A stretch of 64,000 bases of DNA from Gigantopelta aegis (Eukaryota > Mollusca > Gastropoda > Neomphalida > Peltospiridae): the NCBI RefSeq assembly GCF_016097555.1, contig NC_054706.1, positions 22,539,929-22,603,928 of the forward strand, read 5' to 3'. Every line of letters starts with the position of its first letter. Positions within the stretch are counted from its first letter, which is position 1. The position numbers and the translations under genes were made by a program. Below the pieces are notes generated by a model that saw only the letters and a list, made by a program, of their open reading frames with translations, searched no databases and was not told the DNA's origin. This document shows positions 2,616-60,480 of the stretch, in pieces.

Positions 2616-4394
2616 TGTGAAACCGATAAATTATTTGATATAAAATGTAAAATTAAAAGAGTTTCTTCTTCTTAAATACAGTGGCATCAAGTCATCATCT
2701 TTGAGATATTGTATGTGTGCAGTTAAAATACTGCAATTGAAATCAATGATTTCTAAAATAATTGCTCGCGTCTGGTTAGGATACAGCTTTACGGTTGGAA
2801 AGGATGTCACGACAACAGTTTTATGTGTGCCAGTCGTATTGGGCTTTTCAGTGTGACGAAATGGGTAGGTGGGGATGGGAGGCCAGCCTAACCAAGCCAC
2901 AAAAACCAGCCATACGGCTGAAACCTAATCTTTACCCATCGAGAACGCTGGGTGAATTCGATGACTTAACCACTGTTTGTTTTTTGCATCTGAATCGCAA
3001 TATTAGCCATTTAAAAACTATTTAAATGATTATTTTGCATATTACTTTAACCCAAGGATGTTTTCATTTTGATGGCTTTAAAGGCACCAGATCCCACCGG
3101 TTAAGTGTGTGGGGGGGGGGGGGGGGGGGGGGGGCACTGATCAGGTTCCAAGACGTCAAGAGGGATCTGGTATGATCCACGTACATTTTTTTAATTGGAT
3201 GTCTTTCAAGTGATTTTTTTGGGCATTTGAATCGCAAAAGTAGCCATTTTTAAACCACAGTTTGTCAACTATTTAAGGATTACTTTTCAAGAATATATAT
3301 ATATATATTTTTTTAATCCTTTAGTTTGCCTTAAAGCACCAGATCTCATCTGTTAAGTGTGGGGGTGGGGGTGGAGGGTAATGATCAGAGTCGTTAATAA
3401 GCGTTTGGGGGGGGGGGGGTATGCTTTCCCCAAAATATTTGAAATAAATAAGCAAAATAAGCCATTATTAAACAATGTTTTATTATTTTAAAAATTATTT
3501 TGCATAGTATTATATATAAAAAAGAAAGCTATAGTTTGTTTTGTTTAATGACTTCACTAGAACACATTGATTTATTAATCATTGTCTATTGGATGTAAGA
3601 TAGAATATTTTGGGTGTTTTAATTATTATTTAGATAGCCTTAGACCTGATTTCTTTTCATCTGAATAGCAAAATTACCCATTTTTGAGACGGTGATCTGT
3701 TACTCTTTTGAAGTTTTGTTTCTGTTACTTTTTGTGTGCTTGGAAGGGAAACGTCGTTTGGAAGGAGACAGCCTGCGTACGTCCAGGGGAGAGGGTTCAG
3801 AGGTCGACCTCCCCTCCCCCTTCTCAAGCAAATTTTCTTTTTTCTTTTCAATACATTTTCCGGAGGAGCATGTCTTCAACCTCACCCCCCACCCCCCGCA
3901 TACACTTCGCTCACCAATCTAGACCCGCCCTGCTAAAATCCCTGCACACGTGACTGGACAGCTATAGGTCACCTCATAGAAATAGTTTTATATTATTGTG
4001 TATTATTAAGTGAAGTTATGGAAGACCTTGTGTCATCAACTACATACGCAAATGGTCATTGTTCAACAGGGATAGTGTACTTGATCACTATATTGCACTG
4101 GATGAGTTAAAGACCCAGAGGCTTTAAATACAGCAACTTCACTTATATGTTTGGTTAATAACAAACAAACAAACGACAAAAATAACAACAAAACAAAATG
4201 GAATACACCCTGCTGTATATAGGTTAGTGTTTCCTCGCACTAGGAACATCGGATTCTGGATGTGTCCTTTGTTCGTTAACCATTGCTATTCTACATTTTT
4301 CGCGGTGGTTCTGACGACGGTTAGAACAAGAAATTATTAGATGATGAACCACTATACACAAGCTGTTATGGTTATTTTGACGTTGGACATTGTG

Positions 4395-4795
4395 GTTAGA
4401 AAGAAAGAAAGAAGTGTTTTATATAACGACGCACTCAACACATTTTATTTACGGTTATATGGCGTCAGACATATGGTTAAGGACAACCCAGATTTTGAGA
4501 GGAAACCCGCTGTCGCCACTACATGGGCTACTCTTCCGATTAGCAGCAAGGGATCTTTTATTTGCGCTTCCCACAGGCAGGATAGCACAAACCATGGCCT
4601 TTGTTGAACCAGTTATGGATCACTGGTCGGTGCAAGTGGTTTACACCTACTCATTGAGCCTCGCGGAGCACTCACTCGGGGTTTGGAGTCGGTATCTGGA
4701 TTAAAAATCCCATGTCTTGACTGGGATCCGAACCCAGTACCTACCAGCCTGTAGACCGATGGCCTGCCACGACGCCATCGAGGCCGGTTTGTGGT
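4395..4795 (-). mobile_element. Composite tRNA-derived SINE, minus orientation
   Basis: Reads on the minus strand from a tRNA-like head (reverse of 'gggatccgaacccagtacct', B-box) to a tail (reverse of 'tgttttatataacgacgcac'). Its head resembles family 2 and its 3' half resembles family 1. The same composite is at 37560-37927, so this is a family and not a chance junction. Confidence 0.85.
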
Positions 4796-6724: not shown

Positions 6725-7206
6725 AGCGATTTTGGCAATTTTGAAATTTACACCCAAAAATTAAATAGTGGGCCTTTAAAACTTTGATGCGCATCTCTAA
6801 TTAATTAATAAAGACAATTCAACTCATTAAATTTGGTCGCTACATTAGATCGGGTGGTCAAAAAGAATTAGATAAGATCGGTGGCCTGACTCGAGATGGA
6901 AGGGGGGGGGGGGGGGGGGGGTAGAGTTGACATACAGTTTTCACTCATTCGGAACACTTTGGTCGATATTGGACTGTTGTAAGGTCTCATTCGGAACATC
7001 TCGTCACGATTTCTCAGGTATCAGCCGAGATGTTCCGAGTCCGAAGCACAAACGCTGTTAATTAATAGTGTCATAGTTCATGAATCGACTCGGGAGACCA
7101 ATTTCTTATTTAAAAAGCTGGTTATCATTCACATCACAGCTATAGCAGTAGACATCACAAATGTCTGTTTGCGCATTATACAGCATCCATTGGGCTATTT
7201 CTCGAT
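6725..7206 (+). repeat. Dispersed repeat (copy 1) with G-tract
   Basis: Shares nearly 480 bp with 32245-32757: 'ggcctttaaaactttgatgc', the 'agatcggtggcctgactcg' hairpin half, a G-tract (6901-6921), 'actcattcggaacactttgg' and the hairpin-forming 'cggaacatctcg ... cgagatgttccg'. It runs directly into a SINE fragment at 7183. Confidence 0.85.
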
Positions 7207-8574
7207 TGCACTACGACTTGTATATCAACGGTCGTGGTATGTGCTATCCTGTCTGTGGGATGGTGCATATAAAAGATCCGATCCCTTGCTGCTAATTGAA
7301 AAAGAGTAGCCCATGAAGTGCCTACCACAGCGGGTTTCCTCTCAATATAATATTATATGTGTGGTTCTTGACCATATGTCCGACTCCATATAACTGTAAA
7401 TAAAAAGTGTTAGAGTGCATCCTCAAATAAAACATTCCTTCCTCCTTGTTCACCACGTGTTTCAGCCTCCAGTATTCTGCTGTGTCAGGGGCGGGACGTA
7501 GACCAGTGGTAAAGCGCTCGCTTGATGCACACTCGGTTTAGGATCAATCCCCATCGGTGGCCCCATTGGGCTATTTCTCGTTCCAGCCAGTGCTCCACAA
7601 CTGATGTAACAAAGGCCGTGGTATGTACTATCCTGTCTGTGGGATGGTGCATATAAAAGATCCGATCCCTTGCTGCTAATTGAAAAAGAGTAGCCCATGA
7701 AGTGCCTACCACAGCGGGTTTCCTCTCAATATAATATTATATGTGTGGTTCTTGACCATATGTCCGACTCCATATAACTGTAAATAAAAAGTGTTAGAGT
7801 GCATCCTCAAATAAAACATTCCTTCCTCCTTGTTCACCATGTGTTTCAGCCTCCAGTATTCTGCTGTGTCAGGGGCGGGACGTAGACCAGTGGTAAAGCG
7901 CTCGCTTGATGCACACTCGGTTTAGGATCAATCCCCATCGGTGGCCCCATTGGGCTATTTCTCGTTCCAGCCAGTGCTCCACAACTGATGTAACAAAGGC
8001 CGTGGTATGTACTATCCTGTCTGTGGGATGGTGCATATAAAAGATCCGATCCCTTGCTGCTAATTGAAAAAGAGTAGCCCATGAAGTGCCTACCACAGCG
8101 GGTTTCCTCTCAATATAATATTATATGTGTGGTTCTTGACCATATGTCCGACTCCATATAACTGTAAATAAAAAGTGTTAGAGTGCATCCTCAAATAAAA
8201 CATTCCTTCCTCCTTGTTCACCACGTGTTTCAGCCTCCAGTATTCTGCTGTGTCAGGGGCGGGACGTAGACCAGTGGTAAAGCGCTCGCTTGATGCACGC
8301 TCGGTTTAGGATCGATCCCCGTCGGTGGCCCCATTGGGCTATTTCTCGTTCCAGCCAGTGCTCCACAACTGATGTAACAAAGGCCGTGGTATGTACTATC
8401 CTGTCTGTGGGATGGTGCATATAAAAGATCCCTGGCTACTAATTGAAAAAGAGTAGCCAATGAAGTGGTCACAGCGGGTTTCCTCTCTCAATATATATGT
8501 GGTCCTTAACCATATGTCCGACGCCATATAACTGTAAATAAAAAGTGTTAGAGTGCGTCGTTAAATAAAACATT
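7183..8574 (+). repeat. SINE-plus-intron tandem array, 384-bp units
   Basis: Units start with 'ccttcctccttgttcacca' at 7437, 7821, 8205 and 8575, giving spacings of 384, 384 and 370 bp, preceded by a partial unit (7183-7436). Each unit is one family-1 SINE plus about 55 bp of the CIAO3 intron that flanks the SINE in unit A (321-375). The first two full units are nearly identical, so amplification is recent. The array sits exactly at the left junction of duplicated unit B. Confidence 0.9.
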
Positions 8575-8658
8575 CCTTCCTCCTTGTTCACCATGTGTTT
8601 CAGCCTCCAGTATTCTGCTGTATCACAAAACTAGCTATCATTTTCCTCTTCCTTTCAG

Positions 8659-16908: not shown

Positions 16909-18172
16909 ATGGGAGACAAGTCTCCATACGCCCCCGCTAATAATTCAAACATAGGAAATAAGGGCCTTAGCGTTCTCCAGTGGAACGCTAAAGGCCTCCA
17001 TTCAATGGGACATGGTGCCGAACTCATTCAACTCATTAGCACTAGCAACATCAAGCCAGATATAATTTGCCTGCAAGAAACTTGGCTAGGAATCGGCACT
17101 AAAGATAAAAAAAAAAAAAAAAAAAGTATTTAAAATTCCAGGATATACAAATTATTATAAAAATAGAGAAAATAGTACTAGAGGTGGAATAGCCACTCTA
17201 ATTAAAAATACCATACCGCATACCGAAATTAAATATGATTCTGTTAATAAAAACTTAGAAGTCCTAGGACTTACTATACAAAACGATAAAATGCCTATTG
17301 ATATCATCAATGTTTATAGCCCACCTGGAACAGCCCATAATCAACTAACGTTAAGAGATTACAATAAACTCATAAACTCAAACAATAACTTAATTCTTGT
17401 AGGAGATTTTAATTGTCATAGCACACTGTGGGGAGGTCTGCACTCCGACGCACAGGGAGACATACTAGAGGAATTCATCAATACACACAATCTAGTATGT
17501 CTCAACGATGGCAGTACTACTTTTATACATGACTATCTGGGCACATCCGCCATCGACCTAACTATCACCTCTAACAATATAGGTGCAAACGCCCAATGGG
17601 AGGTGTTAGAAGCTCTCAATAGCGACCACCTCCCCATTCTAACCAGCTATAAATGTAATACTACTTATACAGAAGAAGAAAAATGTATACCTAAATTTAA
17701 ATTTAATAAAGCTAACTGGGCTGGCTTTACAAGCGACTGTAGCAAAATTAAGTTAGAAAATAGCCTAAACATTGACGACGCCACTAATAAACTTACTAAT
17801 AAAATAATAGAAATAGCTGAAAAGAATATTCCTAAAACTAAACCGTTCAATAAAAATAGACCAGTTAACTGGTGGACGGACGAAATTAAATCCAAATGCG
17901 GCTTTAGGAACAGGATGCGTAAACTTTATAAAAAAACAGGGAAACAAGACTATCACACTAAATATAAAATAGCCAAAAACGAAGTAGGTAAGCTTATCAT
18001 CAATGCTAAACAAGCCAGCTGGCATAAATTTTGCGGTGAAATTAACAATAGAACATCCATAAGAGAAATGTGGAAAAAAATTAAGGCTATTCAAGGACAA
18101 CGCGCTAATTCCACAGTCCTTCAAAAACATAAAACAGCAACTACTAATAAACAAAAGGCCGACCTTCTCCAC
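16909..18172 (+). pseudogene. Non-LTR retrotransposon ORF2, endonuclease domain, truncated before RT
   Basis: Apurinic-like (EEP) endonuclease of the same LINE, which nicks target DNA to prime reverse transcription. Motifs in order: 'LQWNAKG', 'CLQETW', then after a frameshift 'GGIATLIK', 'NVYSPPG', 'GDFNCHSTLWG', 'AIDLTIT' and 'SDHLPI', which supply the expected Asn, Glu, Asp/Asn and catalytic His. The frame breaks at an A-run of about 18 (17107-17125). After the endonuclease the linker ('RPVNWWTDEI', 'RNRMRKLYKK') is present, but the reverse transcriptase is missing: at about 18172 the sequence changes abruptly into satellite DNA. Confidence 0.87.
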
Positions 18173-21098
18173 GTAACATACACATGCAAACATGTATGGA
18201 AGTAACCCAGGCAGTAACTTCCAGCAATGTTCATGTACATCCATTGTAGAGGTACCCGTGACATACACATGTAAACATGTATGGAACTAACCCAGGCAGT
18301 AACTTCCAACAATGTTCATGTACATCCATTATAGAGGAACCCGTAACACACACATGTAAACATGTATGGAAGTAATTACCCAGGCAGTAACTTCCAGCAA
18401 TGTTCATGTACATCCATTGTAGAGGTACCCGTGACATACACATGTAAACATGTATGGAGGTAACCCAGGCAGTAACTTCCAGCAATGTTCATGTACATCC
18501 ATTGTAGAGGTACCCGTGACATACACATGTAAACATGTATGGAACTAACCCAGGCAGTAACTTCCAGCAATGTTCATGTACATCCATTATAGAGGAACCC
18601 GTAACACACACATGTAAACATGTATGGAAGTAATTACCCAGGCAGTAACTTCCAGCAATGTTCATGTACATCCATTATAGAGGTACCCGTGACATACACA
18701 TGTAAACATGTATGGAAGTAACCCAGGCAGTAACTTCCAGCAATGTTCATGTACATCCATTATAGAGGTACCCGTGACATACACATGTAAACATGTATGG
18801 AACTAACCCAGGCAGTAACTTCCAGCAATGTTCATGTACATCCATTATAGAGGTACCCGTGACATACACATGTAAACATGTATGGAAGTAAGTTCAAGTA
18901 ACCCAGGTAGTAACTTCCAGCAATGTTCATGTACATGTCCATTATAGAGGTACCCGTGACATAAACATGTAAACATGTATGGAAGTAACCCAGGCAGTAA
19001 CTTCCAGCAATGTTCATGTACATCCATTGTAGAGGTACACGTAACATACACATGCAAACATGTATGGAACTAACCCAGGCAGTAACTTCCAGCAATGTTC
19101 ATGTACATCCATTGTAGAGGTACCCGTAACACACACATGTAAACATGTATGGAACTAACCCAGGCAGTAATTTCCAGCAATGTTCATGTACATCCATTAT
19201 AGAGGAACCCGTAACACACACATGTAAACATGTATGGAACTAACCCAGGCAGTAACTTCCAGCAATGTTCATGTACATCAATTGTAGAGGTACACGTAAC
19301 ATACACATGCAAACATGTATGGAAGTAACCCAAGCAGTAACTTCCAGCACTGTTCATGTATATCCATTATAGAGGAACCCGTAACACACACATGTAAACA
19401 TGTATGGAAGTAATTACCCAGGCAGTAACTTCCAGCAATGTTCATGTACATCCATTGTAGAGGTACACGTAACATACACATGTAAACATGTATGGAAGTA
19501 ACCCAGGCAGTAACTTCTAGCAATGTTCATGTATATCCATTATAGAGGAACCCGTAACACACACATGTAAACATGTATGGAAGTAATTACCCAGGCAGTA
19601 ACTTCCAGCAATGTTCATGTACATCCATTGTAGAGGTACACGTAACATACACATGTAAACATGTATGGAAGTAACCCAGGCAGTAACTTCCAGCAATGTT
19701 CATGTACATCCATTGTAGAGGTACCCGTAACACACACATGTAAACATGTATGGAAGTAACCCAGGCAGTAACTTCTAGCAATGTTCATGTATATCCATTA
19801 TAGAGGAACCCGTAACACACACATGTAAACATGTATGGAAGTAATTACCCAGGCAGTAACTTCCAGCAATGTTCATGTACATCCATTGTAGAGGTACACG
19901 TAACATACACATGTAAACATGTATGGAAGTAACCCAGGCAGTAACTTCTAGCAATGTTCATGTATATCCATTATAGAGGAACACGTAACACACACATGTA
20001 AACATGTATGGAAGTAATTACCCAGGCAGTAACTTCCAGCAATGTTCATGTACATCCATTGTAGAGGTACACGTAACATACACATGTAAACATGTATGGA
20101 AGTAACCCAGGCAGTAACTTCTAGCAATGTTCATGTATATCCATTATAGAGGAACCCGTAACACACACATGTAAACATGTATGGAAGTAATTACCCAGGC
20201 AGTAACTTCCAGCAATGTTCATGTACATCCATTGTAGAGGTACACGTAACATACACATGTAAACATGTATGGAAGTAACCCAGGCAGTAACTTCCAGCAA
20301 TGTTCATGTACATCCAGTGTAGAGGTACCCGTAACACACACATGTAAACATGTATAGAAGTAACCCAGGCAGTAACTTCTAGCAATGTTCATGTATATCC
20401 ATTATAGAGGAACCCGTAACACACACATGTAAACATGTATGGAAGTAATTACCTAGGCAGTAACTTCCAGCAATGTTCATGTACATCCATTGTAGAGGTA
20501 CACGTAACATACACATGTAAACATGTATGGAAGTAAGCAGTAACTTCCAGCACTGTTCATGTATAACTGGTTCAACAAAGGCCATGGTTTGTGCTATCCT
20601 GCCTGTGGGAAGCGCAAATAAAAGATCCCTTGCTGCCTGTCGTAAAAAGAGTAGCCTATGTGGCGACAGCGGGTTTCCTCTAAAAACAGTGTCAGAATGA
20701 CCATATGTTTGACGTCCAATAGCCGATGATAAGATAAAAAATCAATGTGCTCTAGCGGCGTCGTTAAATAAAACAAACCTTTTTTTTTGTTCATGTATAT
20801 CCATTATAGAGGAACCCGTAACACACACATGTAAACATGTATGGAAGTAATTACCCAAGCAGTAACTTCCAGCAATGTTCATGTATATCCATTGTAGAGG
20901 AACCCGTAACACACACATGTAAACATGTATGGAGGTAACCCAAGCACTGTTCATGTATATCCATTGTAGAGGAACCCGTAACACACACATGTAAACATGT
21001 ATGGAAGTAATTACCCAGGCAGTAACTTCCAGCAATGTTCATGTACATCCATTATAGAGGTACACATAACATACACATGTATGTAAACATGTGTGCCT
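18172..21098. repeat. Satellite of 85/89-bp units
   Basis: About thirty copies of a unit with 'acatgtaaacatgtatgg', 'cccaggcagtaacttccagc' and 'gttcatgtacatccattgta'. Units are about 85 bp, or about 89 bp when they carry 'ggaagtaattaccc'. From about 19400 to 20530 the two types alternate with correlated variants ('cttctagc' with 'gtatatcc'), a higher-order pattern. A SINE splits the array at 20566-20787. Each unit contains the palindromic ACATGTAAACATGT core. Minus-strand frames through it are repeat artefacts. Confidence 0.95.
20566..20787 (+). mobile_element. SINE inserted into the satellite, with 12-bp target duplication
   Basis: 5'-truncated family-1-type SINE ('actggttcaacaaaggccat' to 'cgtcgttaaataaaacaaac' plus T-run). 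Satellite sequence TGTTCATGTATA occurs at 20554-20565 and again at 20788-20799, and the array resumes in register afterwards. Confidence 0.93.
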
Positions 21099-22184
21099 AT
21101 TACTGATTAAACCATCTTCCTTGCTCAGTATTTTTACAATGTTTGCAAACAAATAATTTCAAATTACTTGTACAGAACAAGAATACAACATGTACAGAAT
21201 GTTCACCTGCATTTACGATGTACAGGTCAACATTTGTACAGAATGTTCACCTGCATTAACGATGTACAGGTCTACATGTGTACAGGTAACTGACAGACCA
21301 GACTGCACATCAGCTGATCATGTTCTGTCGCTCACCTTCCTGCATCTCAGACTAAACAAAGCACAACTCTCTACCCATCTCCACACAGGCAAGGCAGTCT
21401 TTACTATGAGCTAAATCAAGGCAGCCTGACGATAACCCCTCCTAAAATAATTATAGGCAAGCAATCACATGGAGTTTCAAATAAAATTTACTGAAATGTT
21501 TATTTCCAGGGCATCAGTGTGCTGTTCACCTAAATCTTCATGGTGAATACTGAGGTAAGTGCAAGCAATTATTCCCCTTTTCCGACGAAGACTGGTAAAA
21601 GATAACGTATCAGTAATAAGAAAATTACAATTAAAACAATTATTATATATGCATAATGGTTCACTTCAGATGAACAGAGTTGGTAGAACATTCGTCTGAG
21701 GTGCTTGCATCGCAGGATCAAACCACCTCAGTGGATCCATTCTCCCATCAGGTTTTAACTCTGATTCAACCAGCGACCTACTGCTGGTATATCAAAGGTT
21801 ATATCATGTGTTGTCTTGTCTGTGGGGAAAGTGCATATCAAAGATCCCCTGGTAATGGAAAAATGTAGCAGGTTCGACATCCAACAGCCGATGATTAATA
21901 AAACAATGTGCTCTAGTGGTGTTGTTAAACAAAACAAACTAACTTTTAACTCTAGTCAACAAACTGTGGTTGTGGGCACTGATAGATCCATGTAACAAAC
22001 TAAAAGATTTGGACAGACTTTCTCCCGGGGTCTCGCTCACAGTGTTCACCTTCACCTTCATTTACAGTCTCAGTTTTCCTCTTTTCTCCTTTCTTTCACT
22101 CACTCAATCTCACTTCACCCCTCTTAGCTTCATCCACCCCTCACTCACACTGTTTGACCTTCACTTGCCCCCCTGGCCTCTGTC
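21099..22184. other. Flank after the satellite: small tandem duplication and a SINE
   Basis: Two 53-bp direct copies with 'gtacagaatgttcacctgca' (about 21191-21290), then unassigned sequence, then the SINE at 21665-21950 and a pyrimidine-rich stretch (22020-22180). No gene recognised. Confidence 0.6.
21665..21950 (+). mobile_element. tRNA-derived SINE, diverged
   Basis: Head 'agagttggtagaacattcgt' and B-box-like 'gcaggatcaaacc', body 'tggtatatcaaaggttat', tail 'ctctagtggtgttgttaaac'. Diverged family-1 relative. Confidence 0.75.
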
Positions 22185-22345: not shown

Positions 22346-22909
22346 CCTCTGTTAACTAAAGCTGAATAAATACATTCACTCATCCCTTTTCAGCCACCCA
22401 TACACCCCTACCTTCCTTCATTTTGTTTACTCACTTCCCCTCACTATATACAAATTATAACTACTTGTGATATCAAACAAACCTTTCTCGACATTATACT
22501 AGCTGTCTGTTGGTAGAAATATTTCACATCACCATTTTCGTGATAATCCAAAAACACAAAATCAAAATAACAACACAACAATCAGTGTCCTTCAGTTCGT
22601 AGTTTACTCCGTTATACTTATATCAGAAATCAAAACCATCTTCAACACATTCTACCTAATTTCACATCTCACATACAGAGTCTGATCTGAACCAGACAAG
22701 TGGCGAAAACGGCAGAAATAACTTGCTACTTTACTTCCAAGTGTATTTGGACAGGTATATTTGACCTACTTTTGCACATTTCTTTGGTTGTTATGGCCTC
22801 AGATTACAGTTATCTTACCATTTGGTTGTCAAAAATCCGGAAATTTGACCACGCAAGTAGTCTGCTGTTTGACTGTGATTATTTCATGGCAGACAGCTAT
22901 GAAGTGGCA
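22346..22909. other. No feature seen
   Basis: AT-rich sequence without motifs I can name. The open frame at 22700-22918 has no recognisable domain. Confidence 0.5.
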
Positions 22910-22920
22910 ACTATTTGACT

Positions 22921-23304
22921 AGCCCGAGTAATCTGACTGTAAGAGAGCTAGACGGACATTCGGACATAAACACGCTCTCATTACAGTCAGAGACCAACCT
23001 ATGTCTTTTTTGGGCAATTCCTGACTACCAAACGGTAGGCAACGAGTCCCGCTCTAATACCACAACAATCCTATGTTTGACGTCAAATACCTTTACATCA
23101 ATAATTTTCGAGTTAAGTGATACAAAAAAATCCACATATTAATCACTAATACACTTACTACAGAAAGAAATCCGACAGCACCCACATTCAGGTACGCTTC
23201 GTGACACTCCGTCGCAACAATTGCAAAGCTCGGCGATCTATTTCGAGACGTAGACCACGTGATCGCGCACTGGGCGATTCCGCCTTGTGCAGCAGTTACA
23301 GGGG
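22921..23304 (+). repeat. Left terminal inverted repeat of the Pack-MULE-like element
   Basis: 384 bp, from AGCCCGAGTA to 'gcagcagttacagggg'. Pairs with 23503-23865. Confidence 0.93.
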
Positions 23305-23331
23305 CCGTCTCATATCAAGCGAAGTTACAAC

Positions 23332-23511
23332 ATGGAAGAGTTGGCTAATGCCGTTTTGGATGAATTTGTATTTCATTACGTCATTAAACCAAAACAATTA
23401 CACATTATTGATTCCATTTTGAATTTGAAGGATACATTTGGGGTGTTATCGACAGGATACGGCAAAAGTATGTGCTACGTACTGCCTCCTCTTATGAGAC
23501 AACCCCTGTAA
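23332..23511 (+). pseudogene. RecQ-like DNA helicase N-terminal fragment in the transposon loop
   Basis: From ATG 23332 the frame reads 'MEELANAVLDEF', 'KPKQLHIIDSILNLKD' (RecQ-type Q-motif zone), then 'FGVLSTGYGKSMCYVLPPL', the Walker A motif I of RecQ helicases (STGYGKS at 23449-23469). It ends in a stop a few bases into the right TIR. A full RecQ helicase core needs about 350 further residues (DEAH box, motifs III-VI), which are absent, so it has no helicase activity by itself. Likely a captured 5' exon of a host or transposon-borne RecQ gene. The assignment rests on motif order and spacing. Confidence 0.8.
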
Positions 23512-23865
23512 CTGCTGCACAAGGCGGAATCGCCCAGTCTAGAAATAGATCGCCGAGCTTTGTAATTGTTGCGACGGAGTGTCACGAAGCGTAGCTGAAT
23601 GTAGGTGCTGTCGGGTTTCTTTCTGTAGTATGTGTATTAGTGATTAATATGTGGATTTTTTTGTATCACTTAACTCGAAAATGATTGATGTAAAGGTATT
23701 TGACGTCAAACATAGGATTGTTGTGGTATTAGAGCGGGACTCGTTGCCTACCGTTTGGTAGTCAGGAATTGCCAAAAAAAGACATAGGTTGGTCTCTGAC
23801 TGTAATGAGAGCGTGTTTATGTCCAAATGTCCGTCTAGCTCTCTTACAGTCAGAGTACTCGGGCT
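23503..23865 (-). repeat. Right terminal inverted repeat of the Pack-MULE-like element
   Basis: 363 bp, from 'cccctgtaactgctgcac' to TACTCGGGCT. About 20 bp shorter than the left arm. Confidence 0.93.
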
Positions 23866-23876
23866 ACTATTTGACT

Positions 23877-25079: not shown

Positions 25080-26270
25080 CCAATTGGCTCCTACTAGTAT
25101 TAGATTATTATTTGCTTTTATAAGTTTATTATAGTCATTTATGGTTAGCTGCTTATGGGCTGTTCCCGGTGGGCTATATACGTTAATAACATCTATAGGC
25201 ATTTTATCATTTAGTATAGAAAGTCCTAGGACTTCTAGATTGGCATTTATGGATTCGTATTTAATTTCACTATGAGGTATAGTGTTTTTAATGAGTTAGG
25301 CTATTCCACCTCTGGTACTGTTTTCTCTATGTTTATAATAAGTTGAGTAGCCTGGGATTTTGAACGTTTTAGTTTTTTAGTTTTTGTTTTTACTGGTGCC
25401 ATTTCCTAGCCAAGTTTCTTGTAGGCATATGATATCTGGCTTGATGTTATTGGTGCTAATGAGTTGTATGAGTTCGGCACCATGTCCCATTGAATGGAGG
25501 CCCTTATTTTTTGGAATATTTTGTTTATTTATGGTGTGTGGAGATGGATCTCCCATATCTTATCCTGAAGTTTATTTATTTATTTTATTTATCTGTTTAT
25601 TTTTCTATTTACTTTTATTTAGTTGTTTTTTGTTGTTGTTTTTTAATTTTATTCTTTATATTTTCTACCTTATTAATTTTTTTGTCTTATGTCGGCTTTG
25701 ATGGAGGAAATTTCTAGGGCCAGTTTTTCAATTATGGGTTTGAGTTCGCTGACTTGTGTCTGGTCTGTGGTTTTAACTGTTTCTGCATAAGTGATTGTTT
25801 TCGTGACTAGATAGTTATCTCTGACGGTTAGTTTTGGTTTAGTTGTGATTTTTTCCTGTTTATCTAAAAGGTTCATTTGCTGCAGCGCCCTTTGGTAGTG
25901 GTGGCACCGAGAGTCGTGTGCCATGTGTCTATCCAGGCAATTGGGGGAATTGGATGGGGTTGGTGCAAGGCGAGTTATGGGAGGCTCTGGCATGCTTCTG
26001 GCCGCAGCGATAGCAGGTGGGTGGGCTTCTATATTGGCGGCATTTTGCGGCTCCGTATCCCCACTGCTAACAGTGGTGGCACTTACTCGGTTTCTTCTCG
26101 TAAGGGAGGAGCGAGTGTCTGCGACCTTGGACTATGATGAAGTGGTCGCATGGTTGGGTAGTTGCTATTAGGAGGTAACCATTTGTCCAGGTTGTTACCT
26201 CACTAATAGATAGACTGGGATTATCCTCTTTAAGAGTTTGGAGTGAGGTGGCGTGAGCTGGCATTGGGTG
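25080..26270 (-). pseudogene. Second copy of the zinc-knuckle LINE, decayed, minus strand
   Basis: Minus-strand relative of 14647-18172. 26264-26067 reads the block before the fingers ('SLQTLKEDNPSLSISEVTTW'), 26067-25900 carries the first two knuckles with an in-frame stop inside the first, 25993-25673 reads 'CLDRHMAHDSRCHHYQ' and the ORF1 C-terminus, and 25540-25087 matches the endonuclease start (reverse of 'gatatctggcttgatgtt'). It ends at the GTAGGAG of the endonuclease motif (25087), so the 3' part is gone. Multiple stops and frameshifts. Confidence 0.8.
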
Positions 26271-35342: not shown

Positions 35343-35550
35343 CAAAAGTTTGTTTTGTTTAACGACACCACTAGAGCACATTCATTTAATAATCATCGGC
35401 TATTGGATGTCAAACATTTGGTAATTTTGACATATAATCTTAAAGAGGAAATCCGCTACATTTTTCCATTAGTAGAAAAGGATAGTTTATATGCACCATC
35501 CCACAGACAGGATAGCACATACCACGGCCTTTGATATACCAGTCGTGGTG
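35343..35550 (-). mobile_element. SINE inserted in RT motif A, 10-bp target duplication
   Basis: Family-1 type, minus orientation ('gtttgttttgtttaacgaca' to 'taccagtcgtggtg'), 5'-truncated. TTAAAGTCAA flanks it at 35333-35342 and 35551-35560; that 10-mer codes for part of the motif A aspartate region. Confidence 0.93.
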
Positions 35551-37927: not shown

Positions 37928-39500
37928 CCATGGTATAGATTGTGATAAGATCTGCACTATCATCTTTGAAGGGTTTCTCCAAGTTGCAATTACTGATGTG
38001 AGCTGGTTGACCTCTTTCTGGAACTTTGCCCAAACAGGGAATTTGATCATGGTGCTTCCGAGATTTCCTTGCTGTAACTTGAAGAACCAGTATGATCCTC
38101 AATCATTCTGGATATGTAGGCTGGCCATCATCCATCATCCATCATCTTAGAGTTGAGGGATTTTCTGTCAGACCCACATCTCCACCTCCATCTTTTACTA
38201 TGGCATTGCCCTGCTCATATGCCTAATCAAGGACCATAGCTGAGAATGGACAGACAAACCCTCTTGATACACAGCTTGCATGGTGACCGACAAAGAGCTC
38301 ATGTCTCTGAGATGGACGGACAGCCATCTAGTGTAGTTGGTGTGGCCTAAGTTGAAGACCCACAGAATCAACTAGAGACTCGACATAGTTTGTAAACCTC
38401 TCATCCTGTAGTGAACTAACCAAGCTAAATATGCAGAAATCAATTTCAAGTACAAGTGACCAATACAGGAACTGTGACTGCTATGATTTCAATTTGGTGC
38501 ACCAGTTTGCAAAGTTCCGAATTTCATCTCCTGATGTCACCTATGTGTACCGGTCGCATGCTTGGTTTTGAAGAATAAATAAAGCAGCTGCTGTGATCTC
38601 ACAAGCATAACTTGTGCTCATTAGATGGAGACCTTGATGAGTTTGTTTTCATTTAACGACACCACTAGAGCATATTGATTTATTAATCATCGGCTATTGG
38701 ATGTCAAACATTTGGTAATTTTGACATATAGTATAAGAAAGGAAACCCGCTACATTTTTCCAGTAGTAGCATGGGATCTTTTATATGCACCATCCTACAG
38801 CCAGGATAGTACATACCACGGCCTTTGATACCCCAGTCGTGGTGCACTGGCTGGAATGAGAAATAGCTCGATGGGCCCACCGACGGGGATCGATCCCAGA
38901 CAGACTGCGTATCAAGCTAGCGCTTTACCACTGCGATACGTCCCGCCCACGTGACCTTGATGCATGAGTCGGCAACTCGTTGCAATTTCGACAATACATA
39001 TTGCAGTGGTCCAACCACTTCCCTCTAGCCAATTCCCCGAGGTTTTGCAGCCAACCAGAGATAATGAGAAATTATACTCTCCAAAGTTATTGGGAAAGTT
39101 CCACTGTTTTGTTTTTAGCATGGGCAAATAGTGGTTGATCCATGGTGATCACTAGAACTTGGCCAAGGACTGAATGTGCATACTCAAGGAAGAGTGGCAT
39201 GAGAGTAAAGGTTGTGGGCTGTGGGCATATTCATGAACGGTATTTATTTAGAAGCATGGTTGCCCACATAGAATGTAGTCTTCCATGTTCAGCTTAGATT
39301 TGTCTAACTGACATCTCAGGTTATCCAACCATTCGTACTTCTTTACCAGTGTAGAAGCCATGTCAGCTGTTTGGGCCAACTGTGGGAGTAACGAGGTACT
39401 TTCTTGATGTGAAGAGTCGGAGAAACATGTGTGTACCTAGCAGCAATCTCCTTTCCTTCCTTTGGTATCTCACCAATCACAAGGTGAAATCTGGCCCTAA
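37928..39500 (-). pseudogene. Decayed gene of an uncharacterised multicopy (probably mobile) family
   Basis: Minus-strand frames in order carry 'LVKKYEWLDNL', 'GNWLEGSGWTTA', 'NYTRWLSVHLRDMSSLS' and 'HHDQIPCLGK ... PFKDDSADLITIYTMG'. I know this motif series (WLEGSGW, RWLSVHxRDM, HxQIPxxQK, DxSADLxxxxTM) from predicted uncharacterised proteins present in many copies in cnidarian and mollusc genomes; function is not known to me. Frames are broken by stops and by a SINE (38640-38949). High copy number elsewhere and inverted ends near 36.6 and 39.9 kb suggest a DNA transposon cargo or transposase-like gene; this is inference. Confidence 0.6.
38640..38949 (-). mobile_element. SINE family 1, full length, minus orientation
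   Basis: From 'gtttgttttcatttaacgac' to 'ccactgcgatacgtcccgcc', with B-box 'gggatcgatccca' reversed. It interrupts the decayed gene at 37928-39500. Confidence 0.88.
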
Positions 39501-59900: not shown

Positions 59901-60480
59901 TTGCATGCTGGTAGGTACAGGGTTCGTAGCCCGGTGTCGGCCACTACACCTTCTTCTCTCTCACTAACTGATAACAACTAACCCACTGTCCTGGACAGAC
60001 AGCCCAGATAGCTGAGGTGTGTACCCAGGACAGCATGCTTGAACCTTAATTGGATAAAAGCACGGAAATAAGTTGAAATGAAATGAATGAATTAGGAAAA
60101 ATGTAGCGGGTTTCCTCTGATCACTACATGTACGTGTTATTATTACCAAATGTTTGACATCCAATAGCCGATGATTAATTAATCAATGTGCTCCAGTGGT
60201 GTCTTTAAACAAAACAGAACTTTACTTTTTGAAATGGGTGGGTGGGGGGAGGTCATAGAACCCATGATATGACCCTCCGCTGAATGTGTGTTATTGGGTT
60301 AGTAAGAGCTGGAAGTCATGGGTACTACATGTCCATGAGAAAGTCATTATAATATTATTGTTTCAATCCTTGATGTGCAGGAAACCGAGGCAGCTCTGAA
60401 ACTAATGGCGGAGAGGATCCGCAGTGAAGAGAGGAAACAGGATCAGATAACTCCAGATGACGATCAAGAGGACATGTTTG
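41934..60480 (+). CDS. CLUAP1: CLUAP1/IFT38, intraflagellar transport complex B subunit (nine exons, 3' end outside window)
   Basis: Clusterin-associated protein 1 (IFT38, qilin), a peripheral IFT-B subunit needed to build and maintain cilia; in the family it works with IFT57/IFT20/IFT80. Exons 41934-41955, 43996-44107, 45868-45952, 47329-47511, 53671-53766, 55428-55511, 56276-56409, 58289-58430 and 60381-60480 join in phase with GT-AG sites to about 319 codons. Residues 1 to about 130 form the calponin-homology-like N-terminus ('[20 protein letters not shown]', 'MENFRTPNF', '[23 protein letters not shown]'); from about 135 on it is coiled coil ('[16 protein letters not shown]', '[16 protein letters not shown]', '[16 protein letters not shown]', 'NLTYLEQQ'). 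Vertebrate homologues are about 410 residues, so the acidic C-terminal quarter lies to the right. No frame damage seen. Confidence 0.95.
41956..43995 (+). other. CLUAP1 intron 1
   Basis: AT-rich. The minus-strand frame at 42380-42799 (139 codons, cysteine-containing, ends '...RSENKKLLT') is the longest open frame; it has no motif I know and is probably chance. No repeat family identified. Confidence 0.6.
43996..44107 (+). CDS. CLUAP1: CLUAP1 exon 2
   Basis: Acceptor 'tttatattttcag', donor GTAATT. Residues 8-45, '(N)[12 protein letters not shown]' to 'LRWLVKR', start of the CH-like domain. Confidence 0.95.
45207..45448 (+). repeat. Dispersed repeat, second copy of 32799-33043
   Basis: Nearly identical for about 240 bp ('ccttaagtctgatggctcaa', 'ctcatgtgttataaccatca'), and it joins the same reversed SINE tail at its right end. 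Confidence 0.85.
45424..45635 (-). mobile_element. Degenerate SINE, minus orientation
   Basis: 'gtttttgttttacgacacca' then 'agacatttggtaattctgac', 'gatcttttatatatgtactt' and 'cacataccatgttctttaat'. Family-1 type, well diverged. Confidence 0.75.
45868..45952 (+). CDS. CLUAP1: CLUAP1 exon 3
   Basis: Acceptor 'tattcttcag', donor GTAACT. Reads '[18 protein letters not shown]' and 'FIKSVAEFM'. Residues 45-73. Confidence 0.95.
45953..47328 (+). other. CLUAP1 intron 3
   Basis: 45978-46335 is the inverted copy of the 37030-37375 repeat. 47066-47240 has three direct copies (62- and 57-bp spacing) of 'ttatgaataccagccactag'. No other gene. Confidence 0.7.
47066..47240 (+). repeat. Three-copy tandem repeat in CLUAP1 intron 3
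   Basis: 'ttatttgtg' starts at 47066, 47128 and 47185; each unit contains 'ccagccactag' and 'cataaaggcc' or a variant. Confidence 0.88.
47329..47511 (+). CDS. CLUAP1: CLUAP1 exon 4
   Basis: Acceptor 'tttttaaag', donor GTATAT. 61 codons, '[18 protein letters not shown]' to 'SFDVSSK'; end of the CH-like domain. Confidence 0.95.
49911..50032. mobile_element. Short MITE with inverted ends
   Basis: 'gggacctaattcactaaact' against the reverse of 'agctttgtcaattaggcccc'. About 120 bp, no coding capacity. Confidence 0.65.
50483..50623 (+). repeat. 47-bp tandem repeat, three copies
   Basis: 'attttattgtcttgtttaac' starts at 50483, 50530 and 50577. Copies differ at single bases. Confidence 0.93.
52140..53623 (+). 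mobile_element. Tc1-like (DD34E) DNA transposon, 1484 bp, in CLUAP1 intron 4
   Basis: Inverted ends CTAGCCGGCATTAATAATGC (left) and, reversed from the right, CTAGGCGGCAATAAAAACGC, about 27 bp with several mismatches, each flanked by TA (52138-52139 and 53624-53625), the Tc1/mariner target. The interior encodes a frameshifted transposase. It is clearly GC-richer than the host intron, as expected for a fairly recent arrival. One of the better-defined elements of the window. Confidence 0.93.
52433..53444 (+). pseudogene. Tc1-family transposase, two frameshifts
   Basis: DDE transposase that would cut and paste the element. Three frames in succession: 52433-52669 (paired-like HTH '[19 protein letters not shown]' and 'RRRSGTPR' hook), about 52660-53035 ('SARTVRRRL', first catalytic Asp in '[10 protein letters not shown]', 'GGVMVWGAI') and about 53034-53444 ('[12 protein letters not shown]', second Asp in '[10 protein letters not shown]', then '[21 protein letters not shown]' with Glu). 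Exactly 34 residues lie between the second Asp and the Glu, the DD34E spacing of Tc1. All three catalytic residues survive, but frame breaks near 52664 (T-run) and 53030 make the copy non-autonomous. Total about 335 codons, the normal family length. Confidence 0.92.
53671..53766 (+). CDS. CLUAP1: CLUAP1 exon 5
   Basis: Acceptor 'gtttatctgtgtag', donor GTAAGT. 32 codons, '[18 protein letters not shown]' to 'EVDLR'. A transposon end is only 47 bp upstream. Confidence 0.95.
53767..55427 (+). other. CLUAP1 intron 5
   Basis: AT-rich, no repeat family named with confidence. 54475-54525 resembles one end of the 61752-61873 MITE ('gagcccatattattgaagct'). Confidence 0.5.
55428..55511 (+). CDS. CLUAP1: CLUAP1 exon 6
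   Basis: Acceptor 'ttatttcag', donor GTATTT. 28 codons, '[18 protein letters not shown]'. The 'RPLEINE' core of the family reads 'RSLEINE' here. Confidence 0.92.
55512..56275 (+). other. CLUAP1 intron 6
   Basis: Nothing recognised apart from a T-run at 55988-56000. Confidence 0.5.
56276..56409 (+). CDS. CLUAP1: CLUAP1 exon 7
   Basis: Acceptor 'cttgtttgtgtag', donor GTACAG. '[18 protein letters not shown]' to 'LSTLQSVR'. Coiled coil. Confidence 0.95.
56431..56550. mobile_element. Palindromic MITE 22 bp after the exon 7 donor
   Basis: 'tgtgtgagaccgtttatatt' pairs with the reverse of 'agtataaatggtctcacacg', and 'cgtacatcac' with 'gtgatgtaca', around the loop 'gagcaaaagcga'. Arms about 52 bp. 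Confidence 0.85.
56760..56965 (+). mobile_element. SINE family 2
   Basis: 'ttggcgcagtggttaagcca', B-box 'gggttcgcagcc', tail 'gatataagcacgaaaataag'. Lacks the 'gctgaggtgtgtgcccagga' segment. Confidence 0.87.
57365..57683 (-). mobile_element. SINE family 2, minus, split by a 3'-LINE-like insertion
   Basis: Left piece 'gttcaagcatgctgtcctgg' to 'gaggacagt'; right piece 'agtgggttagttgtgagtga' to 'caccactgaggccggtt'. Between them (about 57430-57565) lies 'aataataaattctttattta' and 'agccctcaggtacaaacgat', flanked by ACAGT on both sides, which suggests a later retroposed insertion. Confidence 0.65.
57868..58195 (+). mobile_element. SINE family 1, full length
   Basis: 'gggcgagacgtagcccaatg' through 'ccattgggctatttctcatt' and 'gcatataaaagatcccttgc'-type body to 'gtgcgtcgttaaataaaaca'. 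It ends 94 bp before exon 8. Confidence 0.9.
58289..58430 (+). CDS. CLUAP1: CLUAP1 exon 8
   Basis: Acceptor 'gatgtattttag', donor GTGACT. '[18 protein letters not shown]' to 'VEQDKLE'. Coiled coil. Confidence 0.95.
58444..58556. mobile_element. Palindromic MITE 13 bp after the exon 8 donor
   Basis: 'ttaccagttattatcaaatt' pairs with 'aatttgataataactggtac', 'atttatgtcc' with 'ggacataaat', around a short loop (58488-58507). Arms about 45 bp. The sequence 'ggggtaataaataaagg' near 59008 mirrors 'attaccccag' at 58555, so it may be part of a larger element. Confidence 0.82.
59022..59168. mobile_element. Palindromic MITE in CLUAP1 intron 8
   Basis: 'tttttaatatggaaaatatc' pairs with 'gatatttttcatattaaaaa', and 'ttaatcggtatttgt' with 'ataaatactgattaa'. 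Confidence 0.8.
59731..60225 (+). mobile_element. Chimeric SINE cluster
   Basis: Family-1 head and body (59736-59902), then directly a family-2 segment ('ggtaggtacagggttcgtag' to 'ataaaagcacggaaataagt', to about 60085), then a family-1 tail ('aaatgtagcgggtttcctct' to 'ctttaaacaaaacagaac'). The outer family-1 parts look like one SINE split by a family-2 insertion. Confidence 0.78.
60381..60480 (+). CDS. CLUAP1: CLUAP1 exon 9
   Basis: Acceptor 'ttgatgtgcag', donor GTATGT. '[18 protein letters not shown]' then an acidic turn 'DDDQEDMF'. Ends one base into a codon; the next exon is not identified in the window. Confidence 0.88.

Follow-up and report, generated by a model that had tools for sequence, protein, structure and literature searches.

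How did the beginning of a RecQ helicase come to lie between two long inverted repeats in the genome of the gastropod Gigantopelta aegis? The locus forms a small part of the window, by which we mean the whole 64,000-nt stretch of contig that was analyzed, and the initial annotation had read it as a Pack-MULE-like element carrying a captured piece of a host helicase gene. Positions 22920-23866 of the window are a terminal inverted repeat (TIR) transposon of 947 bp, the short form of its family, flanked by target-site duplications (TSDs). Its parts are given here with their strand and the evidence for each.

22907-22909, plus strand: GCA at -4 to -2 of the target, the family's commonest flank (GCAN-9-NTGC); 28 sites
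22911-22919, no strand: left TSD CTATTTGAC, 9 bp; sequence, with the length set against 27 other insertions
22920-23866, plus strand: non-autonomous TIR transposon, 947-bp short form, with ends TAGCCCGAGTA...TACTCGGGCTA; repeat search, BLAST and copies elsewhere
22920-23314, plus strand: left TIR arm, 395 bp; BLAST and repeat search
23249-23269, plus strand: 21-bp stretch in the left arm only, not in the right arm; limits ambiguous by 1-2 bp
23332-23511, plus strand: open reading frame (ORF) of 59 aa, the N-terminal 55 aa of a RecQ helicase followed by RQPL and a stop from the right arm; ORF, profiles and PDB
23449-23469, plus strand: Walker A (motif I) STGYGKS; sequence and alignment to RecQ/WRN
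23493-23497, plus strand: TATGA, the internal-deletion junction making the short form from a 2.2-kb form; comparison with long loci
23493-23866, minus strand: right TIR arm, 374 bp; BLAST
23867-23875, no strand: right TSD CTATTTGAC, 9 bp; sequence, with other insertions compared

The two arms (22920-23314 against 23493-23866) pair in BLAST with 12 mismatches and one 21-bp gap, so that the inverted repeats described earlier are real, but with lengths of 395 and 374 bp rather than 384 and 363 bp. The 21 bp missing from the right arm of the short form are present in both arms of the 2.2-kb form. The flanking repeat ACTATTTGACT had been taken for an 11-bp duplication; it is indeed exact around the window element, but comparison of 28 insertions sets the TSD at 9 bp. 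In the 27 other insertions, a T before AGCCC opens the element and an A after GGGCT closes it (with one changed base at the right end in L032); the first A and last T of ACTATTTGACT are therefore chance matches, and we rejected the 11-bp TSD.

Elsewhere in the window are two tandem arrays, at 18172-20563 (85-bp unit, about 28 copies) and 7226-8625 (384-bp unit, 3.7 copies), as well as a possible LINE-type endonuclease fragment on the minus strand at 25380-25559 (Exo_endo_phos, E 0.0011, under the cut-off). A SINE-like repeat with 76-87% identity occurs at 35346-35506, 38642-38800, 60100-60216, 20668-20777 and 21872-21938, and is also found nested in the 2.2-kb form.

A genome search with the left arm gave 2250 first-look candidates, 40 of which were scored, all with at least 98% identity. 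These comprise 21 matches to the 947-bp form, one to the same form with a cut right arm, 17 to the long form and one solo TIR; the 17 long-form matches represent 16 elements, as L033 and L044 are one element. The last ten matches were typed from 422-600 bp of interior each, and copy numbers are counts of first-look candidates (2250 for the TIR, 699 for the loop and 488 for the long interior, with 40, 150 and 40 scored, respectively). At 28 insertions we found 28 different flanks, with a TSD of 9 bp in 27 and of 10 bp in one, and both the short and the 2.2-kb forms occur at many sites with 9-bp TSDs. The target consensus is GCAN-9-NTGC, in which GCA occupies -4 to -2 on one side of the TSD and TGC occupies +2 to +4 on the other; flank frequencies at the three places are C 62%, A 62% and G 48% over both strands of the 28 sites, in a table that includes rows L032 and L042, each one base off. 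At L029, one copy has entered the loop of a second copy; GGCAAAAGT, duplicated by this insertion, occurs once in the intact loop.

Substitutions relative to the majority sequence range from 0.11 to 1.06% in 16 short copies, the window copy being the most diverged of the 16, and this bears out the earlier view of the insertion as young. The family consists of young, multicopy, mobile TIR elements that have been recently active. An older copy, L020, is about 10% diverged; it has the same TIR, the same spacing to the RecQ start and the first six RecQ codons, followed by another repeat. The solo TIR (L040:466-864) is 99.7-100% identical to the long form and passes into unrelated DNA near the TIR inner border; with neither another TIR nor any related coding sequence over 9 kb, it was rejected as a full-length copy.

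The loop had been described as reading in frame through a RecQ N-terminus and Walker A, and our analysis agrees. The ORF starts at 23332 and stays open up to the stop codon, 23509-23511; the final four amino acids of its 59-aa product are read from the TIR. The ORF matches TIGR00614 (recQ_fam) with E 3.9e-10 and 39 bits over 47 of 470 positions, where the whole-protein cut-off is 219.8, and Pfam DEAD with E 1.2e-5, 0.5 bit below the Pfam cut-off. The only RNA-helicase model to match does so far worse than the RecQ family (E 0.078), and the closest PDB matches are RecQ and WRN; a homologous-protein search with the loop ORF gave no match. Of the 16 short copies that were aligned, 13 have an uninterrupted frame across Walker A; in one of the 13, L026, the motif itself is altered.

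The longer form of the element is 2.22 kb long. Its TIR in copy L031 is 402 bp with one 1-bp indel, and 10 bp separate the 402-bp TIR from the RecQ start codon in the young copies and L020 alike. In all 13 long loci read (12 elements), RecQ exon 1 continues past the loop to the splice donor GTAAGT. The exon end reads ...CTCTTATGA A[A/G]ATAAA GTAAGT, exactly in ten loci and with one substitution in three; between CTCTTATGA and GTAAGT lies AAGATAAA, or AAAATAAA in L033, L039 and L044. The right-TIR inner border is likewise visible in all 13, as GATATGAGACGG in 12 and GACATGAGACGG in L035, with the right TIR starting ...GATATGA GACGG (GACATGA in L035). Across the same junction the window reads CTCTTATGAGAC: relative to the 2.2-kb form, the short form is without the DNA from the end of RecQ exon 1 to the right TIR, and the break falls at the 5-bp microhomology TATGA. 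The 947-bp form is an internal deletion product of the 2.2-kb form. Because its loop is a remnant of this deletion, it was not captured by the window element.

Frames were read in four long copies, L031, L034, L037 and L042, and show no long ORF beyond exon 1; in L031 the exon 1 frame is itself broken. These are four of the 12 long elements fetched whole; the other eight are about 2.2 kb long. L037 (4506 bp) and L042 (2658 bp) owe their greater length to nested insertions, each bounded by terminal repeats of its own, and we rejected their extra DNA as ancestral interior. Both contain a nested insertion of about 411 bp with the TIR CATGGGCGGATCC and TAGGA on both sides. A further nested element of 1872 bp, in L037 alone (L037:6574-8445), has a 14-bp TIR (13/14 match) and TTAA on both sides and is possibly Kolobok- or piggyBac-like; one of its frames has a THAP-like look, with no Pfam match. 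About 700 bp outside the 2.2-kb copy in L034, tyrosine-recombinase-like ORFs occupy L034:3910-4924 on the minus strand (Phage_integrase E 8e-10, DUF3504, weak QRICH1), which we take to be perhaps a Crypton-type element.

What remains is the origin of the RecQ piece in the 2.2-kb form. We favor the reading that the window element is a MITE-like, non-autonomous deletion derivative of a TIR transposon whose own genes include a RecQ-type helicase, at a probability of approximately 0.72, and we class it as a non-autonomous product of deletion in a TIR transposon that was probably RecQ-bearing. We are less sure that the RecQ piece is the transposon's own gene than that the short form arose by deletion. 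Four observations lead us to it: the TIR border and the start codon are 10 bp apart; this layout predates the current burst, being present in the 10% diverged L020 copy; no copy read has another loop; and a different transposon in the same genome, at L053, carries RecQ. The initial annotation had looked to other copies for different loops, and we found one loop type: in 37 of the 40 scored TIR matches (of 2250 candidates) the loop was read, the other three being two long matches covered at their right end only and the solo TIR, and the RecQ start was identical in all 37. The RecQ-type helicase gene of the source transposon would begin just inside the TIR, and the short form would have lost the middle at TATGA plus 21 bp of the right arm. 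A transposase from a full-length relative may recognize the TIRs and so mobilize both forms. The RecQ start would have been kept only because it adjoins the TIR, in which case the 59-aa peptide would need no function.

The RecQ-bearing transposon at L053:1066-7005 (G000:C6:35150000-35157500) is 5940 bp long and contains RecQ exons between TIRs unlike those of the window element. These TIRs are 63 bp long and are flanked by the 9-bp TSD TAATTCACC; the element that it entered exists in two other copies with the empty site preserved. Its first RecQ exon matches DEAD with E 3.4e-16, and the RecQ start lies 207 bp from the element end. The opposite strand encodes a protein that weakly resembles zf-AD (E 2.9e-4, below the cut-off), and a homologous-protein search with this second ORF gave no match. 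A shortened copy at L062:5891-7222 keeps the DNA of both gene starts, with no duplication seen around it, and the RecQ part of the element is also present in L075. Because its RecQ has 31% identity to the loop over 55 aa and the two elements have no TIR in common, the L053 element is an analogue and not the parent. L053:688-7191 was rejected as one element, as it consists of two nested elements. The remaining parts, L053:688-1065 and 7006-7191, make up a copy of a second family of short TIR elements, and it was this copy that the RecQ-bearing element entered. Two further copies lie at L062:2382-2950 and 3876-4445. The TSDs of this second family are 9 bp long, ATACAAGTG for the L053 copy and GTGTTTGAA for each of those in L062.

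The competing explanation that survives best places a capture further back: a Pack-MULE-like event would have brought RecQ exon 1 and part of intron 1, from the host or from another transposon, into the 2.2-kb form, from which the 947-bp form then arose. We regard this as unlikely, despite several features that agree with it. An exon followed by a good splice donor is what the genomic DNA of a gene start would supply. Furthermore, a full-length copy with the window TIR encoding a whole RecQ or a transposase was not found among the TIR matches examined; the initial annotation had held that a single loop within a longer element encoding a full RecQ-type protein would mark a relic, and we found the one loop inside a longer element, but no copy with the window TIR that encodes the full RecQ. 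A RecQ profile search of the genome yielded 44 matches, with 41 of 666 candidates scored; of the 42 matches that were compared, none lay within 75 kb of the 71 listed family positions, both lists being partial and 150 loop matches being compared by eye only. This result and the lack of long ORFs beyond exon 1 in the four long copies read tell against our preferred reading. The TIR and TSD lengths were correctly called MULE-like: a 402-bp TIR (L031) and a TSD that is 9 bp long in all but one of 28 insertions, where it is 10 bp, fit the ranges of 14-500 bp and 8-11 bp stated for MULEs in the cited part of PMC6446971. By TSD and TIR length the window element looks like a MULE, a comparison that rests on these lengths, with the defining transposase missing from the copies read. 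Nor would capture in an animal be unprecedented, because gene-carrying TIR transposons are documented there, with 370 Pack-TIRs in 100 animal genomes according to the cited part of PMC8277862, whose main text contains no words in mollus- or oyster.

Against capture, a start codon 10 bp from the TIR border would need chance, the association of TIR and RecQ is as old as the 10% diverged L020 copy, and the family, unlike Pack-MULEs, has one loop in every copy read and no host parent found. The initial annotation expected an intact parental RecQ gene, of which there was none among the loci fetched. The loop shares no DNA run longer than 14 nt with 19 RecQ-related loci in 13 separate regions, a set in which several RecQ genes were fetched in part and from which L060, a DEAD-box-like match, was left out. 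L048, L049, L050, L054-L061 and L073-L076 were rejected as candidates for parent or source: those tested do not match the loop in DNA, and no TIR or interior sequence of the family was found in L048-L050, L061, L057/L073/L074, L075 or L058/L076. Among the RecQ exons inspected, the best protein matches to the loop of at least 25 aa are 48% over 29 aa (L050) and 43% over 49 aa (L073); shorter stretches of higher identity occur around Walker A, e.g. 67% over 12 aa in L049, as in any such ATPase. We also rejected an intron common to the loop and a host RECQL-like gene: the exon end is nearby but 2 nt off and in a different phase, and therefore gives no support for a common origin. Together with the deletion junction and the RecQ-bearing L053 transposon, the single loop type and the start codon at the TIR edge leave the capture of a host gene piece unsupported. 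The L073 exon, the closest Walker A exon of useful length inspected, belongs to a multi-exon RecQ-like gene with LPTGYGKS (L073:183-455 with L057:193-1029; G000:C7, about 1106182-1111828).

It is very improbable that the hairpin has been kept for a function, with long double-stranded RNA giving rise to small RNAs that silence a helicase gene. As a single-stranded RNA the element is predicted to fold with -722.5 kcal/mol, far beyond chance (mean -247, sd 7.9, over 20 shuffles), so that the earlier proposal of double-stranded arm transcripts fits the extreme predicted fold, but such a fold is the plain outcome of two long TIRs. As for the proposed target, the loop and the fetched RecQ loci, some of them partial, have no run of 15 nt or more in common, so that none of the 19 loci stands out as a host helicase gene to be silenced. 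Any small RNAs produced would be directed at the family's own copies. A palindrome produced by chance or by the assembly can be dismissed: it is refuted by the 28 copies, which occupy different sites and each have a separate TSD of 9 or 10 bp, and by a nested insertion with its empty site.

A deletion derivative of a RecQ-bearing transposon also has counterparts among known systems. Maize Ds is an internal-deletion derivative of Ac. Like MITE-like deletion derivatives of this kind, the window family has kept its TIRs and lost its middle at a short microhomology, and it combines many near-identical copies with a constant TSD length and a gene stub in the loop; it differs in that the stub is RecQ, not transposase, and that the full-length source was not found. 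Inverted repeats, a constant TSD and many insertions, all traits of TIR transposons, are present, and the copies read contain no complete transposase. AcademH, reportedly a helicase-encoding DNA transposon lineage of animals and fungi (Kojima 2020), is similar in encoding a helicase, a likeness taken from its title alone. The Kolobok target duplication is TTAA, whereas the window family has 9-bp TSDs of varied sequence, and its likeness to KolobokH lies in having a RecQ helicase in a DNA transposon. In the cited part of PMC9587614, KolobokH is a DNA transposon that encodes a RecQ helicase and occurs only in fungi, alongside one red-alga Kolobok with RecQ.

More tentatively, and with the odds against it, we suggest that there may be an animal DNA transposon lineage with 9-bp TSDs and its own RecQ beside the transposase, which would be represented in this one gastropod genome by two branches, the window family and the L053 element. 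Its RecQ would be transcribed from a promoter within the TIR or next to it, and derivatives keeping the TIR-proximal RecQ start would mark former elements.

For the window element, the tempting reading of gene capture gives way to a commonplace process, an internal deletion whose junction can be read. Gene-capture calls of this type can be tested by comparing loops among copies and by seeking a longer form. If the RecQ is the transposon's own, the family adds to the few DNA transposon lineages known with a RecQ-type helicase, and would offer a young family in which to ask what role the helicase has in transposition.
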